From assembly GCF_017811755.1 (NCBI RefSeq), contig NZ_JADDJF010000001.1, positions 186,001 through 250,000 on the forward strand: a stretch of DNA of 64,000 nt, written 5' to 3'. The position numbers were made by a program, and so were the translations under genes. Position 1 is the stretch's first letter. Every line of letters starts with the position of its first letter. Shown here one piece after another: positions 3,762 through 48,455 of the stretch. The stretch is from Pararhodobacter sp. SW119 (GTDB lineage: Bacteria; Pseudomonadota; Alphaproteobacteria; Rhodobacterales; Rhodobacteraceae). The notes below the pieces were generated by a model. That model was not told where the DNA came from and did not search any database. It saw only the letters and a list, made by a program, of their open reading frames with translations.

Positions 3762-4520
3762 ATGGGCTTCTCGGCGGCGGAACTCAGTCGCGACGCCTTC
3801 CTCGGCGGGCGGGTCGAGATCCTGCAGCCGCGATCCGGGTATCGGGCCTCCACGGATCCGGTTCTGCTGGCCGCGGCGGTCGCGGCCAGGCCGGGCCAGT
3901 CCGCTCTGGAACTTGGGTGCGGGGCAGGGGTGGCGCTGCTTTCTCTTGGCTGCCGGGTCCCGGATCTGCAGCTTGTCGGCGTCGAGCGGCAGGTGGACTA
4001 CGCCGAACTTGCGCGGCTAAATGCCGCGGAGAATGGAATCCCGGCAGTGATCTGGCATGCGGACCTGACCCGGATGCCGCCCGAGTTGCGCACGCTGAGG
4101 TTCGACCACGTCATGGCCAACCCGCCCTTCCATCCACCGACGGCGACGCCGGCAAGCGATCCTGGACGCGACGGCGCGCTGCGTGAAGCGACGCCGCTCA
4201 GCCTCTGGATCGATGCCGGTCTGCGCCGCGTGAATGATGGCGGGTATCTGACGCTGATTCACCGGGCCGAACGCTTGCCCGAGATCCTTTCTGCGCTTCA
4301 GGGTCGAGTCGGGGCCGTTGCGGTTCGGCCGCTCGCCGCACGGACCGGCCGGGCAGCGGGTCGCGTGTTGGTCCAGGCACGCAAGGGCGCGCGCGCGCCG
4401 TTTCGGTTGCTTGCGCCGCTGATCCTGCATGCCGGTCTGTCGCACACGAAGGACGGCGACGATTTCGCGAGCGAGGCGCGCGCGATCCTGCGCGATGCGG
4501 CGGCGCTCGACTGGAACTGA
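3762..4520 (+). CDS. TrmN6-like tRNA (adenine-N6)-methyltransferase
   Basis: A class I SAM-dependent methyltransferase of 252 residues. The SAM-binding loop is LELGCGAGVALL (49-60) and the amino-methyltransferase signature NPPF is at 120-123. NPPF is typical of enzymes that methylate exocyclic amino groups of bases. The N-terminal GGRVEILQPRSGYRAS matches the E. coli TrmN6 (YfiC) group, which modifies A37 of tRNA-Val. The exact substrate is inferred from family similarity only. It follows the DUF2007 gene with a three-base gap. Confidence 0.85.
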   Translation: MGFSAAELSRDAFLGGRVEILQPRSGYRASTDPVLLAAAVAARPGQSALELGCGAGVALLSLGCRVPDLQLVGVERQVDYAELARLNAAENGIPAVIWHADLTRMPPELRTLRFDHVMANPPFHPPTATPASDPGRDGALREATPLSLWIDAGLRRVNDGGYLTLIHRAERLPEILSALQGRVGAVAVRPLAARTGRAAGRVLVQARKGARAPFRLLAPLILHAGLSHTKDGDDFASEARAILRDAAALDWN

Positions 4521-18201: not shown

Positions 18202-19116
18202 TTAGCGGCCGAACTGCTGTTCGACGTAGTCCATGATGTCCTCCATCAGCGGGCCGGTAGCGTCGGGGCCGGTGAAGCGGAGGTTCCAGCCCTCAACGCT
18301 CTTTTCGCGGCGGATGTGGAGGCCGACGCGGGGGTGGACGATCCGACGGGGGCGGCCGGGGCGGTAGTCGTATTGCGGCGCACGGGTCTCTCCCTCGACT
18401 TCCTCGAGGATGGGGAGGAGGATTTTCCACTGACCATCGGGTGAGCGGTCAGCCGAGTGCAGAAGCGCATGTTCGATCAAGGGGCCGCGGTCCTGGCGAA
18501 TCGCGGCAGCGATGCGGGTCAGTTGCGTCTGCGACAGGGTTTCGGGGTGGCTCAGCAGGCGGTCGCCGATTTCGGAAACGACTTCGGCAATGGCTCGGAT
18601 GCGATTGCGGCGCTGCTTGTTCAGGGGTTTGTAGAGGGTGGCGACGGCGGCGTCGAGGGTGTCGAAGAGGCCCTCGTGGACGGATTCGACCACGATGCGG
18701 CCCTTTTCCCAGGGGGAGATCTCGGCGCGGATCTCGTTCTCGGCGATCATCCGGGCCATGGCGTCGGGGAGGTCGTGGGGCTCGCGGATGAAGGCGGGGA
18801 TGCGGGCGTCGGGCTTGTGCTGGTGGAGGCGCTGGAAGACGGTCAGGCGGCGCATGCCCGAGATGAGGCCGTAGCGCGGCCCGCCCTCGGCGGGGTTGCG
18901 GATGGCCCAGACCTCGATCGGTTGGCGCAGGCCGTCGAGGAGGACGGACATTTCCAGCTCGGCCAGGGCGGCGGGGTCGAGGGCGGTGCGGTCGCGGGGC
19001 AGGGCCTCGGCCAGGATGTCGGCGGGGGCGATCAGGTGGACCTGCGGGGCGGCGGTGGTGTCGGCGGGGGTTGCGGGGGTTTGGGCGGTTTCGGGGGGTG
19101 TGGGGTGGTCGGTCAT
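18202..19116 (-). CDS. ParB/Spo0J-like DNA-binding protein
   Basis: A 304-residue protein. After a Pro/Thr/Ala-rich tail (1-30), a ParB-like N-terminal domain is visible: LEMSVLLDGLRQPIEVWAIR, then YGLISGMRRLTVFQRL, ARMIAENEIRAEISPWEKG, followed by a helical region (NKQRRNRIRAIAEVV). These correspond to the ParB box and a KorB-like DNA-binding segment. The C-terminus (LRFTGPDATGPLMEDIMDYV) is unlike chromosomal ParB dimerisation domains. No parA or parS is visible, so a partition role is unproven; it may be a stand-alone regulator. Start at 19116 has AAGGAG upstream; the longer open frame is arginine/proline-rich noise. Confidence 0.8.
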   Translation of the reverse strand: MTDHPTPPETAQTPATPADTTAAPQVHLIAPADILAEALPRDRTALDPAALAELEMSVLLDGLRQPIEVWAIRNPAEGGPRYGLISGMRRLTVFQRLHQHKPDARIPAFIREPHDLPDAMARMIAENEIRAEISPWEKGRIVVESVHEGLFDTLDAAVATLYKPLNKQRRNRIRAIAEVVSEIGDRLLSHPETLSQTQLTRIAAAIRQDRGPLIEHALLHSADRSPDGQWKILLPILEEVEGETRAPQYDYRPGRPRRIVHPRVGLHIRREKSVEGWNLRFTGPDATGPLMEDIMDYVEQQFGR

Positions 19117-44027: not shown

Positions 44028-44720
44028 TCAGCCCAGATAGGCGGCCAGCGCCGGCGGCGGGTTGTCCAGCAGGTCCGCGGTCGGGGCGGGGGGTGCGGCG
44101 CGGCCTTCGGCGACGACCACCACCTCGGGGCAGATCCGCCGCGCGTCGGCGGGGTCGTGGGTGACCATCAGCAGCGTCGCTTCCTGTTCCGCGGTGATCG
44201 CTTCGACAAGGTCCAGCATGTCGGTCTTCAGCGCCGGCCCCAGCGCGGAAAAGGGCTCGTCCAGCAGGATCAGCGGCCGCGCCCGCAACAGGACCCGCGC
44301 CAGCCCGGTGCGGCTGATCTGCCCGCCCGACAGTTCCGCCGGCCGGCGCGCGCCCAGTCCCTGCAGGCCGACCCGGTCCAGCGCCGCCTCGACCCGACGC
44401 CGCTGCTCGGCCGAGAGCCGCAGGTTGGGATCGAGGCCGAGTGCGACATTCTCGAACGCGCTCAGGTGCGGCAGCAGGTTGTGGTCCTGAAAGAGGATGC
44501 TCAGCGGGCGCTTTGCGGGCGGCAGAGGGTCGAGCGGCTTGCCCTGCCACCTGATGCTGCCGGCGGTCAATTCGACAAAACCCGAAATGGCGCCCAGCAA
44601 AGTCGACTTCCCCCCGCCCGACGGGCCCATGATAGCCACCCGCGCCCCTTCGGCCACCGTCAGGTCGGCGGCCAGGCGGAAATCGCCCTGTTCGATCCGC
44701 AACCCGTCAAGTTCCAGCAT
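44028..44720 (-). CDS. thiQ: Thiamine ABC transporter, ATP-binding subunit
   Basis: A 230-residue ATPase powering thiamine/TPP uptake. Walker A GPSGGGKST, signature ELSGGQISRTG, Walker B LILLDEPFSALGP and the histidine of VTHD are all present. The arginine-rich signature of typical transporters (SGGQRQR) is changed to SGGQISR, as in ThiQ. It overlaps the thiP end by 14 bases. It is the last gene of the riboswitch-controlled thiBPQ operon. Confidence 0.94.
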   Translation of the reverse strand: MLELDGLRIEQGDFRLAADLTVAEGARVAIMGPSGGGKSTLLGAISGFVELTAGSIRWQGKPLDPLPPAKRPLSILFQDHNLLPHLSAFENVALGLDPNLRLSAEQRRRVEAALDRVGLQGLGARRPAELSGGQISRTGLARVLLRARPLILLDEPFSALGPALKTDMLDLVEAITAEQEATLLMVTHDPADARRICPEVVVVAEGRAAPPAPTADLLDNPPPALAAYLG

Positions 44721-46347
44721 GGCGCGGCTCCTTTCCGCCCACCAGCCGCTCGATCAGCACAAACGCCCCCAGCGCGAGGATCAGCAGAAGCAGCGCCGCC
44801 CCGGCCGCATCCGCCGTCCGGTAGGCGCCCATCAGGCGGTGGAGCTGCATCGGCAACGTCTCGCCCCCGGTCTGCGCAAAAAGGACGATCACGCCCAGAT
44901 CGCCCATCGACAGCGCCGCCCCCAGCCCCAGCCCGAAGCCGAAGGGCCGGCGCAACCGGGGCCAGAGAACCAGCCGCAGATGCGCCGCGGTCGAAAGCCC
45001 CAGTGCGGCCGACAAGCGGGCGTAGTCGGCCTCGGCCTGCCGCAGCGCGGGCAGGACGGCACGCAGCGCGAAGGGCAGCGCCATCGCGGCATTGACCAGC
45101 GCGGTGACCGGCAGCGCCAGCCGCGCCGGGTCGGCATGCGGAAAGGTCAGGATGAAAAGCCCGGTGCCGATCACCATCGGCGAGGCGACCAGCGCGCTGA
45201 GGCCGACGGGCTCGAACACCCAGGCGCCGCGACGTGTCCAGAGCGTGGCCAGCGCCAGCGCGAGGGTGAAGAGTGCGAGCAGCGTGACCGACAGCGCCAC
45301 GACGCGAAGCGACTGCAGCACTGCCGTCCAGACCGGGCCGGGCAGCGACAGCAGGTGCGGCGCGCCGCGCCAGACGACCAGCGCCAGCGGCACCAGAAGG
45401 AACGCCGCGGCCAGAACGATCGCCGCGCCGTCCAGCCCCCGCAACAGCGCGCCCGGCGCGGGCGGCGCGGCACGGTCGAGGCCCGAGAGCGCGCCGACCG
45501 GCAGCGCCAGCCGCGCCAGCATCAGGAGGGCCGCGATGCCGACCGCCGCCTGCACCAGCGCCAGAAGGGCGGCGCGGCCGAGGTCGAACTCGAAGCGGAA
45601 CGCCTGATAGATCGCCAGTTCCAGTGTCGTTGCGCGAGGCCCGCCGCCCAGCGTCAGCGCCACCGCGAACGAGGTCAGGCAGATCAGGAAGATCACCGCC
45701 AGCGCGCCGGGGACGACCTGGCGCAGCATCGGCCCCTCGACATGGCGCCACATCGCGCGCCGGTCGAAGCCCAGCGACGCCGCCAGCCGCAGGTGCTCGG
45801 CCGGAATGCGGCCCCAGCCCTGCAGGATCAGCCGCGTCGCCAGCGGCAGGTTGAAGAAGACATGCGCGACCAGCACCCCCTGCAACCCGTAGATCGAAAC
45901 CGGCGGGATGCCGAAGCTGGCCAGCGCCTGATTGGCGATGCCGGCCCGTCCGAACACCGCCAGCACGCCGACGACGGCGACCAGCGTCGGCAGGATGAAG
46001 GGCGCGCCCATCAGCACGATCAGCGCCCCGCGCCCCGGAAAGCGGCGGCGCGCCAGTGCGCGCGCCACCGGGATCGCCAGCACGACCGAGATCAGCGCCG
46101 ACAGCGCCGCCTGCAGCAGTGTGAAGCGCAGCGCCGCCCAGTCGGCGGCGCGAAAGACCGCGCTGCCCGGATCGGCCCGCCAGCCGACCGCCGCCAGCGC
46201 GCCGAGGTTGAGGGCGAGCAGCACGAGGACCACCGCGCCGGCCGCAAGTCCCAGCGCCAACGGCAGGGGTCTGCGCCAGGGCAAGGGCGGAGCGGGAAGC
46301 CGCACGATGGCGGCCGCGGCGGCGCCGGGGGCGGCGGCGGTGCTCAT
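44707..46347 (-). CDS. thiP: Thiamine ABC transporter, fused permease
   Basis: A 546-residue permease with two copies of the binding-protein-dependent permease domain (about 70-290 and 320-530) and roughly twelve hydrophobic segments. EAA-type loops include LRLAASLGFDRRAMWRHV and YARLSAALGLSTAAHLRLV. The start ATG at 46347 overlaps the TGA of an open frame that runs through the palindrome array. ThiP passes thiamine from ThiB across the membrane with ThiQ. Here it is separated from thiB by about 860 bases instead of being adjacent. Confidence 0.94.
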   Translation of the reverse strand: MSTAAAPGAAAAAIVRLPAPPLPWRRPLPLALGLAAGAVVLVLLALNLGALAAVGWRADPGSAVFRAADWAALRFTLLQAALSALISVVLAIPVARALARRRFPGRGALIVLMGAPFILPTLVAVVGVLAVFGRAGIANQALASFGIPPVSIYGLQGVLVAHVFFNLPLATRLILQGWGRIPAEHLRLAASLGFDRRAMWRHVEGPMLRQVVPGALAVIFLICLTSFAVALTLGGGPRATTLELAIYQAFRFEFDLGRAALLALVQAAVGIAALLMLARLALPVGALSGLDRAAPPAPGALLRGLDGAAIVLAAAFLLVPLALVVWRGAPHLLSLPGPVWTAVLQSLRVVALSVTLLALFTLALALATLWTRRGAWVFEPVGLSALVASPMVIGTGLFILTFPHADPARLALPVTALVNAAMALPFALRAVLPALRQAEADYARLSAALGLSTAAHLRLVLWPRLRRPFGFGLGLGAALSMGDLGVIVLFAQTGGETLPMQLHRLMGAYRTADAAGAALLLLILALGAFVLIERLVGGKEPRHAGT

Positions 46348-46430
46348 GCGCGCGCCCCGGCCCGGTGTCGTGGCACGGCGGGCCAGTGGGTGAGGGTTAT
46401 CCGGCGCGCAGCCCCCCGCGCGCGCGGCCC

Positions 46431-47140
46431 GCATTTCCCCGCGGGGAAATGCGAAGACGAGGGGGTGCATTTCCCCGCGGGGAGTTGGGAAGACGTTAAG
46501 GGTTTCAACGCGGGGGCATGGGAGGACGCCGAGATGCATTTCCCCGCGGGGAAATAGGAGATCGTTAAGGAACATTTCCCCGAGGGGACATGCGAGGGCG
46601 CAGGCGGGCGTCGGATGCCGCGCTGCGGGGCGCGATGGGGGTGGCTCACGACCTCGCGGGATCTCTCCTCAGGGTAATCGGGGCGGGATAGGACGGAGGG
46701 GGCGCATTTCCCCACGGGGAATTGGGAAGACGTTGAGGGTTTCCGCGCGGGGACATGGGAGGATGCCGAACTGCATTTCCCCGCGGGGAAATAGGAAATC
46801 GTTAAGGCTTTTCCCGCGGGGACATGTGAGGATGCCGGGGTGCATTTTTCCGCGGGGAATTGCGGGGGCGCAGGCGGGCGACGGGTGCCGCGCCGCGGGG
46901 CGCTATGGGAGTGGCCCACGACCTCGCGGGATCTCTCCTCAGGGTAATCGGGGCGGGATGGGACGGGGTGGGCGCGTTTCCCCGCGGGGAAATAGGAAGT
47001 CGTTAAGGGTTTCCCCGCGGGGAAAGGGGAGGATGCCGGGGTGCATTTTACCGCGTGGAAATGTGGGGGCGCGTGGGGTCGCCGGGCGCCGTGTCGGGGG
47101 CAGTCTATGACCCCACGGGATTTCCCCGCGGGGAAATCCC
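46431..47140. repeat. Array of about 14 palindromes between thiB and thiP
   Basis: The core TTTCCCCGCGGGGAAA and variants occur with centres at about 46441, 46477, 46510, 46546, 46582, 46714, 46747, 46783, 46816, 46852, 46984, 47017, 47053 and 47128. Neighbours are 33 or 36 bases apart, or 132, 75 across linkers. Some copies are perfect (46431-46452; 47117-47140), others have one to four changes. Cluster plus 109-base linker is tandemly duplicated with a 270-base period (46704 against 46974). Sequences between palindromes are also conserved (TAGGAAATCGTTAAGG, GGGAGGATGCCG). Each unit can form a hairpin in RNA or bind a dimeric protein in DNA. Not a CRISPR: there are no unique spacers. Confidence 0.9.
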
Positions 47141-47209: not shown

Positions 47210-48211
47210 CTATTGCGCCAGCGCGTTCAGCCAGCGGTCGAGCGCGGCATTGCGGATCGCCGCCGCCTCGGCATCCGGGAAGAGGAGCGAGGTGTCGGGC
47301 TGGTGCAGCGTCTCGAACCCGTCGGGCAGGCCGGCTTCGGGGGTGACGGCGGGGTACATCCAGTTGGTCGTGGGGATTATCGACTGGAACGCCTCGGACG
47401 TCATGAACTCCATGAACTGCCGGGCAAGGTCGGGCTGCTCGGACGACGCCAGCACCCCCGCGACCTCGATCTGCAGGTAGTGCCCCTCGTCGAAGGGGGC
47501 GGCGGCCTTGCTGGCGTCGTCCTCGGCGATCAGGTGATAGGCGGGCGAGGTGGTGTAGCTGAGGACCATGTCGGCCTCGCCCTCCAGGAACAGCCCGTAG
47601 GCTTCAGACCAGCCGGAGGTCACGGTGAGGATGCGCGGGGCGAGCCCTGCCCAGATCTCGGCGGCCTGCTCGCCATAGGCGGCTTCGACCCACATCAACA
47701 GGCCGAGGCCGGGGGTCGAGGAGCGGGGGTCCTGGATCACGATGCTGAGGTCGCTGTCGATAAGTTCACGAAAGCTCGAAGGAGGGTTCGGCAGGCGCTC
47801 GCGGTCATGGACGAAGGCGAACCAGCCCCAGTCGAAGGGCAGGAACAGCGGGTCTTCCCAGGCGACCGGCAGGTCCAGCGCGGCCTCCACCCCGTGCGGG
47901 GCGAAAAGTCCGGTGGCGGCGGCGCGCGCGGTCAGGTTGGTGTCGAGGCCGAGGACGACATCGGCCGCGGCGCGGTCGCCTTCCAGCTGCAGCCGCGCCA
48001 GCAGCGCCGCGCCGTCGCCGACGCCGACCATGTTCAGCCGGCAGTCGCAGACGGCCTCGAACGCCTCGGTCACGGCGGGGCCGGGGCCCCAGTCGCTGAC
48101 GAAGCTGTCGTAGGTGTAGACGAGCAGTTCGGGGGTCTGGGCCTGGGTGGCCATCGGGGCCGCGGTGGCGGTGGCCGCCAGCAGTCCCGCGGCGAGTGTC
48201 GGATAGCGCAT
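47210..48211 (-). CDS. thiB: Thiamine-binding periplasmic protein
   Basis: A 333-residue periplasmic protein with a signal peptide (MRYPTLAAGLLAATATAAPM, cut near TQAQ). TPELLVYTYDSFVSDWGPGP, DVVLGLDTNLTARAA, FLPFDWGWFAFVHD and LSYTTSPAYHLI match ThiB and its thiamine pocket. It captures thiamine, its phosphates or TPP for ThiPQ. A TPP riboswitch and SD-masking hairpin lie immediately upstream. The 3' side holds the palindrome array. Confidence 0.95.
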   Translation of the reverse strand: MRYPTLAAGLLAATATAAPMATQAQTPELLVYTYDSFVSDWGPGPAVTEAFEAVCDCRLNMVGVGDGAALLARLQLEGDRAAADVVLGLDTNLTARAAATGLFAPHGVEAALDLPVAWEDPLFLPFDWGWFAFVHDRERLPNPPSSFRELIDSDLSIVIQDPRSSTPGLGLLMWVEAAYGEQAAEIWAGLAPRILTVTSGWSEAYGLFLEGEADMVLSYTTSPAYHLIAEDDASKAAAPFDEGHYLQIEVAGVLASSEQPDLARQFMEFMTSEAFQSIIPTTNWMYPAVTPEAGLPDGFETLHQPDTSLLFPDAEAAAIRNAALDRWLNALAQ

Positions 48212-48218
48212 GTTTCAT

Positions 48219-48252
48219 CCTCCATCTGCGACGGGCGGGTCGGGGGTGGAGG
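48219..48252 (-). promoter_or_regulatory. Shine-Dalgarno-sequestering hairpin of thiB
   Basis: The thiB ribosome-binding site TGGAGG (48224-48219, minus strand) pairs perfectly with CCTCCA (48252-48247), just downstream of the riboswitch core. Such pairing would hide the site when TPP is bound, giving translational control. Confidence 0.6.
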
Positions 48253-48262
48253 CGGACCTGTC

Positions 48263-48345
48263 ACCTTCCCTCCGCCGGTCCGAACCGGGTCAGGTTCAAC
48301 GGGTTCGCGCGACGCATCTCAGCCCGATCAGGGGCACCCCGAGGT
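48263..48345 (-). promoter_or_regulatory. TPP (THI-element) riboswitch
   Basis: On the minus strand the TPP-riboswitch consensus reads in order: CGGGGTGCC, GGGCTGAGATG, GAACCCGTTGAACCTGA, CCGGTTCGGACCGG and GGAGGGAAGGTGA. P1 forms between ACCT and AGGT at the ends. Family knowledge: it represses the downstream gene when TPP is abundant. It lies 51 bases upstream of thiB, so it controls thiBPQ. Confidence 0.95.
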
Positions 48346-48455
48346 AGCCTGAGACTTAACCATCCCGCCGGGACGATCAAGGGGAGGATGCATCGCCGGG
48401 CAAAGCGTGCCAGAATGGACGCGCCAGCCTGATCCGCCAGCGAGGAGGCCCCGCC

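Follow-up and report, generated by a model that had tools for sequence, protein, structure and literature searches.

The locus raises the question of why an array of palindromes should lie between the binding-protein and permease genes of a thi operon in Pararhodobacter sp. SW119, and whether it acts there as RNA or as DNA. In the window (the whole 64,000-nucleotide stretch of contig NZ_JADDJF010000001.1 that was analysed), 14 copies of a TTTCCCCGCGGGGAAA-type palindrome were located at 46434-47136, between thiP and thiB. Six of the 14 copies are exact and 13 carry at most three mismatches, the copy at 46503 having four. Dinucleotide shuffles of the window (n = 100) gave a mean of 0.50 matches at ≤3 mismatches with a maximum of 3, and none (0/100) reached 13. 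The earlier note had claimed about 14 copies, spacings of 33, 36, 132 and 75 bases, a 270-base duplication of a cluster plus its linker, and riboswitch control of the operon; every one of these was reproduced, the number of copies being far above that in shuffles. The features are as follows, those of the array being given without strand.

46434-47136: array of 14 parS-type (ParB-box) palindromes, consensus ATTTCCCCGCGGGGAAAT, spacing 33/36 with gaps of 132 and 75; the site is that of DnaA-like plasmid parAB loci
46434-46449: site 1, exact
46470-46485: site 2, 2 mismatches
46503-46518: site 3, 4 mismatches, degenerate
46539-46554: site 4, exact
46575-46590: site 5, 2 mismatches
46707-46722: site 6, 2 mismatches
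46740-46755: site 7, 2 mismatches
46776-46791: site 8, exact
46809-46824: site 9, 2 mismatches
46845-46860: site 10, 3 mismatches
46977-46992: site 11, exact
47010-47025: site 12, exact
47046-47061: site 13, 3 mismatches
47121-47136: site 14, exact
46539-47062: duplication of 270-bp period in the thi array, 46539-46792 being repeated at 46809-47062 (254 nt, 83%)
47210-48211, minus strand: thiB-like binding protein gene, upstream of the array; name from the earlier note and from its place in relatives
44707-46347, minus strand: thiP-like permease gene, downstream of the array; name from the same two sources
44028-44720, minus strand: thiQ-like ATPase gene, named provisionally after its operon position
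48250-48351, minus strand: TPP riboswitch ahead of thiB, scoring 68.3 bits (gathering threshold 54.3)

The spacings of the thi array are all multiples of three and one minus-strand frame is open through the gap, but a coding repeat was considered and rejected. Codon log-odds across the gap range from -41.5 to -149.1 in the six frames, versus +120.4 for thiB, differences between the array duplicates are more often non-synonymous than synonymous in all six frames, and other arrays of this palindrome show spacings of 35, 37 and 70. With negative log-odds in every frame, the thi array is seemingly non-coding. The earlier note had also proposed a search for the array in relatives. All 80 thiB relatives compared in other genomes are followed by a thiP homologue, the estimated gap between the two genes is positive in 5 of them (largest ~200 bp), and no palindrome with ≤2 mismatches was found between thiB and thiP (0/80), a single two-mismatch match in L022 lying elsewhere. 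The thi array is an extra relative to the thi operons of relatives. A search of plasmid DNA with the thi array as query gave no match.

The palindrome is not confined to the thi operon. The genome-wide search for the palindrome that the earlier note had suggested revealed 95 sites at ≤2 mismatches in the genome (4.51 Mb, 192 contigs), compared with 1 for a reversed-pattern control. Fourteen further site regions were fetched, making 15 with the window, and together these contain 44/44 exact sites and 91/95 sites at ≤2 mismatches, the other 4 being unplaced. Sites are clustered (gaps ≤80 bp) in 13 of the 15 regions, L005 comprising three separate sites and L007 one. Intervals shorter than 150 bp (n = 77) include 47 of 31-40 bp, 41 of those being 33-37 bp, and 19 of 58-75 bp, or about double. 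The regions have in common a 16-bp core with A/T at each end, that is, little beyond the 18-bp site; past position -1 the flanks are close to background in base composition, and the linkers differ among regions, with one look-alike pair in L004 and L008. The earlier note had taken many isolated copies elsewhere as the mark of a mobile REP element; copies are indeed many, but they are mostly clustered and have hardly any flank in common. A shared mobile unit was considered and rejected, the flank 8-mers common to regions being mostly pieces of adjacent palindromes; the 8-mer GGAATTAA, present in 5 regions, does not exceed the top counts reached in shuffles (5-8).

According to gene calls made with an in-house codon-usage caller in place of a standard program, 83/91 sites are intergenic, lying outside predicted genes. 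The site-bearing intergenic regions (n = 20) comprise 8 convergent, 8 tandem and 4 divergent cases, one of the 4 depending on a doubtful 63-aa gene in L009, and neighbouring gene pairs at the same loci (n = 160) comprise 28 convergent, 103 tandem and 29 divergent. As the sites mostly avoid both coding sequence and promoters, action on single promoters appears less likely. In L012 a 683-aa frame is predicted to take in four sites at its 3' end (4192-4372), which may represent chance read-through of the array or an array that extends the protein. Genes for tRNA-Phe, tmRNA and tRNA-Gly are located in L008, L013 and L014, suggesting a chromosomal location for those three regions. In a congener, 111 sampled 20-kb stretches (2.24 Mb, about half) of a 4.42-Mb contig contained 1 site. 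Genes from 11 of the 15 array regions were matched at ≥60% in that sampled contig, none of them from L004-L007. The matches lie at scattered places, and gene order is strongly rearranged relative to the sampled congener, which would mask any ori/ter bias of the sites.

The distribution of the palindrome elsewhere points to plasmid partition loci. Exact matches to this palindrome alone were scanned in overlapping sets of 18 genus, 149 family and 390 order genomes. The exact palindrome occurs in 5/149 family genomes including this one, with 1, 2, 4 and 8 exact 16-mers in the other four, and the 18-bp form in 6/390 genomes of the order, with 32 copies here and 1, 2, 2, 2 and 5 elsewhere. No exact site was found in 17 other species of the genus, and arrays of this palindrome were met in no other species among the genus, family and order genomes scanned. 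Copies within or close to a ParA/ParB pair were seen in G027, G131, G104 and G083. Three further exact palindromes of G027 stand singly and apart from parAB (L096, L097 and L098, on contigs C6, C82 and C88), and may represent incipient dispersal or outlying sites of the plasmid. In other genera, the exact palindrome lies in or beside a parB locus at 11 distinct loci, a group itself defined by TTTCCCCGCGGGGAAA, and all 3 of the 11 whose annotation was consulted encode a DnaA N-terminal protein, an AAA ATPase and a ParB. On annotated plasmids of Gemmobacter aquarius, Fuscovulum ytuae and Jannaschia sp. M317, the palindrome precedes parA, lies within it or follows parB. The remaining ParB rows of the comparison have other palindromes, TGTCCCCGCGGGGACA-type in 15, CTTCCCC-type in 5 and CTTACCCGCGGGTAAG in 3, with none assigned in 5.

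Site spacing of 35-37 bp was observed inside three plasmid-type loci as well (twice in L120, and in L095 and L099). L120 (NZ_CP049817.1 15017-27805), on a Pontibrevibacter plasmid, displays seven TTCCCCGCGGGGAA sites around parAB, two pairs of which are exactly 35 bp apart. At L116 (3292-3975), PLSDB labels the DnaA N-terminal gene as the resistance gene MexK, which looks like a misannotation. The identification of the palindrome as a parS-type centromere site of DnaA-like Rhodobacteraceae plasmids is strongly supported by these sequence comparisons, and the alternative named in the earlier note, a protein-binding or centromere-like array, gains from the identity of the palindrome with the site at DnaA-like plasmid parAB loci. 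Diagnostic palindromes are reported to anchor partition and to track compatibility groups in RepABC plasmids of the order (PMC9426580), a palindrome is also named in PMC3910702, and DnaA-like plasmids are described as restricted to Rhodobacteraceae (PMC6052148). A literature search did not find the exact palindrome, which may be printed in Petersen 2011 on DnaA-like plasmids, and matches to its 12-bp core appear unrelated by title.

A candidate reader of the sites is encoded on contig C107. P0001 is a lone ParB of 321 aa with an intact frame and no stops, which matches ParB_N at 30.2 bits (cut-off 26.3). Exact sites lie 9 bp after the P0001 gene and ~130 bp before it, with a third past the next gene. 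Its neighbours are a DUF1801 protein and, by eye, a hydroxyacid dehydrogenase; no ParA adjoins it. P0001 is thus outside any parAB operon, which is how orphan ParBs are defined in PMC12704722. The genome contains three ParB-like matches to P0001, namely P0001 itself, one on C90 (35%) and one on C1 inside the window (33%). The last, at 18304-19101 on the minus strand, is probably the chromosomal parB. The C90 ParB adjoins a ParA, and its locus (L103/L105) has three GTTTCGCGCGCGAAAC copies in and near parAB, which is a further centromere type. A search of the 192-contig draft for a cognate ParA with a plasmid ParA query returned only the C90 ParA (36%), with its GTTTCGCGCGCGAAAC sites, and two short weak matches on C127 and C160. 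The palindrome TGTTTCACGTGAAACA, which we take to be the classic chromosomal parS, occurs at position 2288 of L106 (G000:C127:64053-67259), some 0.6 kb away from a short ParA-like match.

The ParB loci fetched were the 30 best of the family-genome search. A maximum-likelihood tree was built from 41 ParBs (39 other DnaA-like proteins, P0001, and the C90 ParB as outgroup), from which the near-copies L127, L129, L101, L109 and L148 were left out and in which L112-L115, other kinds of ParB, were never included. P0001 falls in a clade (97/85) with 10 ParBs, all from TTTCCCCGCGGGGAAA loci. The motif QKRSY(I/V)RRFA is present in P0001 and in 10/11 rows of the palindrome group, in 0/28 of the other or unassigned rows, and not in the outgroup. 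The exception, L100, has the TTTCCCCGCGGGGAAA palindrome but lacks the motif and stands outside the clade on a long branch. L131, 54% identical to P0001, nevertheless carries a TGT palindrome, and DnaA-like plasmid ParBs are up to 60% identical to P0001. By these comparisons P0001 is the predicted cognate protein of the palindrome.

Differences between P0001 and its relatives were observed at the N-terminus. All 39 other DnaA-like ParBs have RR(G/S)PM at residue 25-49 together with a KRR.F-like start, and neither is found in P0001, which starts with ~27 unrelated, proline-rich residues and begins about where the ParB_N domain of the others begins. No N-terminal remnant was detected upstream of P0001, the best tblastn match (E 0.12) being inside the gene. 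A close ParB of this family occurs in 98/394 family genomes, this one included, and the ParB open frame is 328 here versus at least 350 in all the others of these 98. Two motifs that we take to be CTP-binding, QGWRRLSA and DENMVRKDIS, are both kept in P0001. RR(G/S)PM is presumed to be the ParA-contacting motif in DnaA-like ParBs. Loss of the ParA motif is reported for orphan ParBs such as Noc, the ParA-binding motif being given as (L|F|I)G[K|R]G(L|F|I) (PMC12704722). P0001 itself is not a Noc match, scoring 24.1 bits against model TIGR04285 (cut-off 315). Contig C107 may be a plasmid. A scan of nine of its proteins showed transporter parts, a dehydratase, SecDF, a sigma factor, a fasciclin and DUF1801, with no replication gene among them, and no tRNA was found on the contig. 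The gene beside P0001 gave no match at E 1e-60 in 17 congeners. As the exact site is also missing from these congeners, long-term conservation cannot be claimed.

Taken together, the array is, with a probability of about 0.78, a cluster of parS-type ParB sites, one of 15 such regions, most likely read by the orphan P0001 without ParA. This reading builds on features taken from the sequence, namely the shared site, the pairing of palindrome and ParB clade, the orphan status, the missing N-terminus and the search that returned no cognate ParA; from these we infer the binding of the palindrome by P0001, the clamp mechanism and the cellular role. ParB dimers would load at the 18-bp palindromes, whose spacing slightly exceeds three helical turns, then close around the DNA as clamps that depend on CTP, and slide into the flanks. 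Arrays of sites at ~35 bp would allow dense ParB loading, and the sliding clamps would build a nucleoprotein cluster independent of ParA, as with Noc and VirB. Such clusters might influence the structure of the chromosome, or incoming plasmids with the same parS, and the thi operon would be one of several places that received an array.

Comparison with known systems places the arrays closest to DnaA-like plasmid parABS, with which they share the 16-18-bp palindrome, a ParB up to 60% identical and site pairs at 35-37 bp. However, the plasmid systems have 3-8 sites (≤2 mismatches, loci with wide flanks), a ParA and a ParB with RR(G/S)PM, whereas this genome has 95 sites, with 91 falling in 15 regions, a ParB lacking RR(G/S)PM and no cognate ParA that the search could find. 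Noc of Bacillus has many chromosomal binding sites. Noc is a ParB derivative without the ParA-binding motif, in which P0001 may resemble it, and it arose by duplication of a canonical parB (PMC12704722); in contrast, P0001 is a plasmid-type ParB and its putative sites are mostly in arrays. VirB of Shigella, a relative of plasmid ParBs, is a CTP-dependent sliding clamp loaded at virS (PMC10770331), but virS lies upstream of regulated promoters, whereas only 4/20 site-bearing intergenic regions are divergent here. Clusters of parS away from the partition operon are reported in Alphaproteobacteria for 3parS of pAMI4 and for distant repABC parS (PMC9040568); those sites are few and on the same replicon as the repABC operon, while here no cognate operon was found. 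The arrays resemble REP/BIME elements in being intergenic palindrome arrays and differ from them in their non-compensatory changes, in the lack of a Y1 transposase beside the sites and in flanks that are hardly common.

Two purposes, chromosome structure or occlusion on the one hand and exclusion of plasmids with the same centromere on the other, would both fit the data. The second can be framed as a sub-reading of its own, in which chromosomal parS copies, aided by a ParB without its presumed ParA-contacting end, titrate and poison the partition of incoming DnaA-like plasmids of the same group by centromere incompatibility; so specified, it is possible but unlikely. The 95 sites are far above the number in any other genome scanned (1-8 exact 16-mers; 1-5 18-mers), and the search found no plasmid of this group in the genome, which does have one of another group on C90. 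The parS mimics of SGI1, likewise plasmid centromere sites on another element, are reported to destabilise IncC plasmids in a dose-dependent manner (PMC10954446), but SGI1 has two sites bound by the plasmid's own ParB, in contrast to 95 sites and an orphan ParB here. The absence of one group from one genome says little, however; a close ParB occurs in just 98/394 family genomes, and the DnaA-N search was run without a positive control in this genome. Exclusion could also do without arrays at 33-37 bp and without a retained ParB.

If, instead, a plasmid parS had been captured by integration and multiplied by slippage, the arrays would be neutral debris and the orphan ParB non-functional. This is improbable, although the thi array itself shows no excess conservation and arrays of this palindrome are confined to one species among the genomes scanned. 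Fifteen dispersed regions are hard to reach through one integration, the ParB frame is intact over 321 aa, and the sites appear constrained in other arrays. In a gapped comparison, in which masking of the palindromes gives a bias towards conservation in the same direction as, but weaker than, that of the 102-site set described below, palindromes diverge less than linkers in 7/7 arrays compared outside the window (16/287 versus 124/824, summed by hand) and in the pooled data that include the window (30/367 versus 153/998, Fisher p 0.0004). The 270-bp copies of the thi array present no such difference (palindromes 14/80, linkers 29/174), and the sole comparison there that favours palindromes is one 69-bp step (ungapped; 4/32 versus 12/37). 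As its palindromes diverge as fast as its linkers and 8/14 copies are inexact, the thi array may be decaying. The site family thus looks constrained as DNA; the thi array itself need not be.

A REP/BIME-type array of RNA hairpins that shields thiB mRNA from 3' exonucleases and so keeps its expression above that of thiP, on the malE-malF model, was the function favoured in the earlier note and is now very improbable. The location between binding-protein and permease genes is what such a role predicts, and the transcribed-strand RNA of 46425-46600 folds strongly (z = -8.16), a stability that leaves room for a side effect on thi mRNA. As the reason for the array, though, RNA protection lacks support: the 14 other regions have unrelated neighbours, the palindrome is missing between thiB and thiP in 80/80 relatives, and the identical site is a parS-type palindrome elsewhere. 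Base pairs were compared in 102 sites with up to 4 mismatches to the consensus (816 pair cells), of which 716 are unchanged, a conservation raised by the choice of sites for similarity to the consensus, and 100 differ. The changed cells comprise 74 one-sided unpaired, 21 one-sided G-U (together 95/100 one-sided), 3 unpaired through changes on both sides and 2 compensatory, so that compensatory change, by which a REP/BIME hairpin would be kept, accounts for 2/100. The central CGCG, a loop in the RNA, is kept in 96-99/102 sites and is conserved like the stem. As departures from the consensus are mostly one-sided, the palindrome behaves as a DNA site.

Least probable is a mobile palindromic element (REP with a RAYT transposase, or a MITE) that spread by copying and owes its identity with plasmid parS to descent only, since a multi-copy, intergenic distribution favouring gene 3' ends (convergent in 8/20 versus 28/160 gene pairs) and the apparently shared L004/L008 linkers are outweighed by flanks that have little beyond 18 bp in common and are near background composition further out, by constraint on sites relative to linkers in 7/7 other arrays compared, and by a search of the Y1 (RAYT) transposase family whose three genome matches (C35, C143) lie in loci without a site.

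The reading of the arrays as parS-type sites of an orphan ParB leads to a broader proposal, which we put forward tentatively and at slightly less than even odds: a plasmid partition system may have turned into a one-protein system, in which a ParB without its presumed ParA-contacting end reads genome-wide parS arrays and either organises the chromosome or gives immunity to plasmids. To our knowledge, few orphan ParBs have known DNA sites, Noc and VirB among them. Orphan ParBs as such are reported to be common (PMC12704722). Here, in a non-model family, sequence data identify a protein together with its candidate sites, and these have multiplied within one species. The locus also cautions against reading every palindrome array in an operon as an RNA element, since some may be centromere sites. 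It would offer a direct test case for the domestication of a plasmid centromere, for plasmid exclusion by chromosomal parS arrays and for ParB action without ParA.
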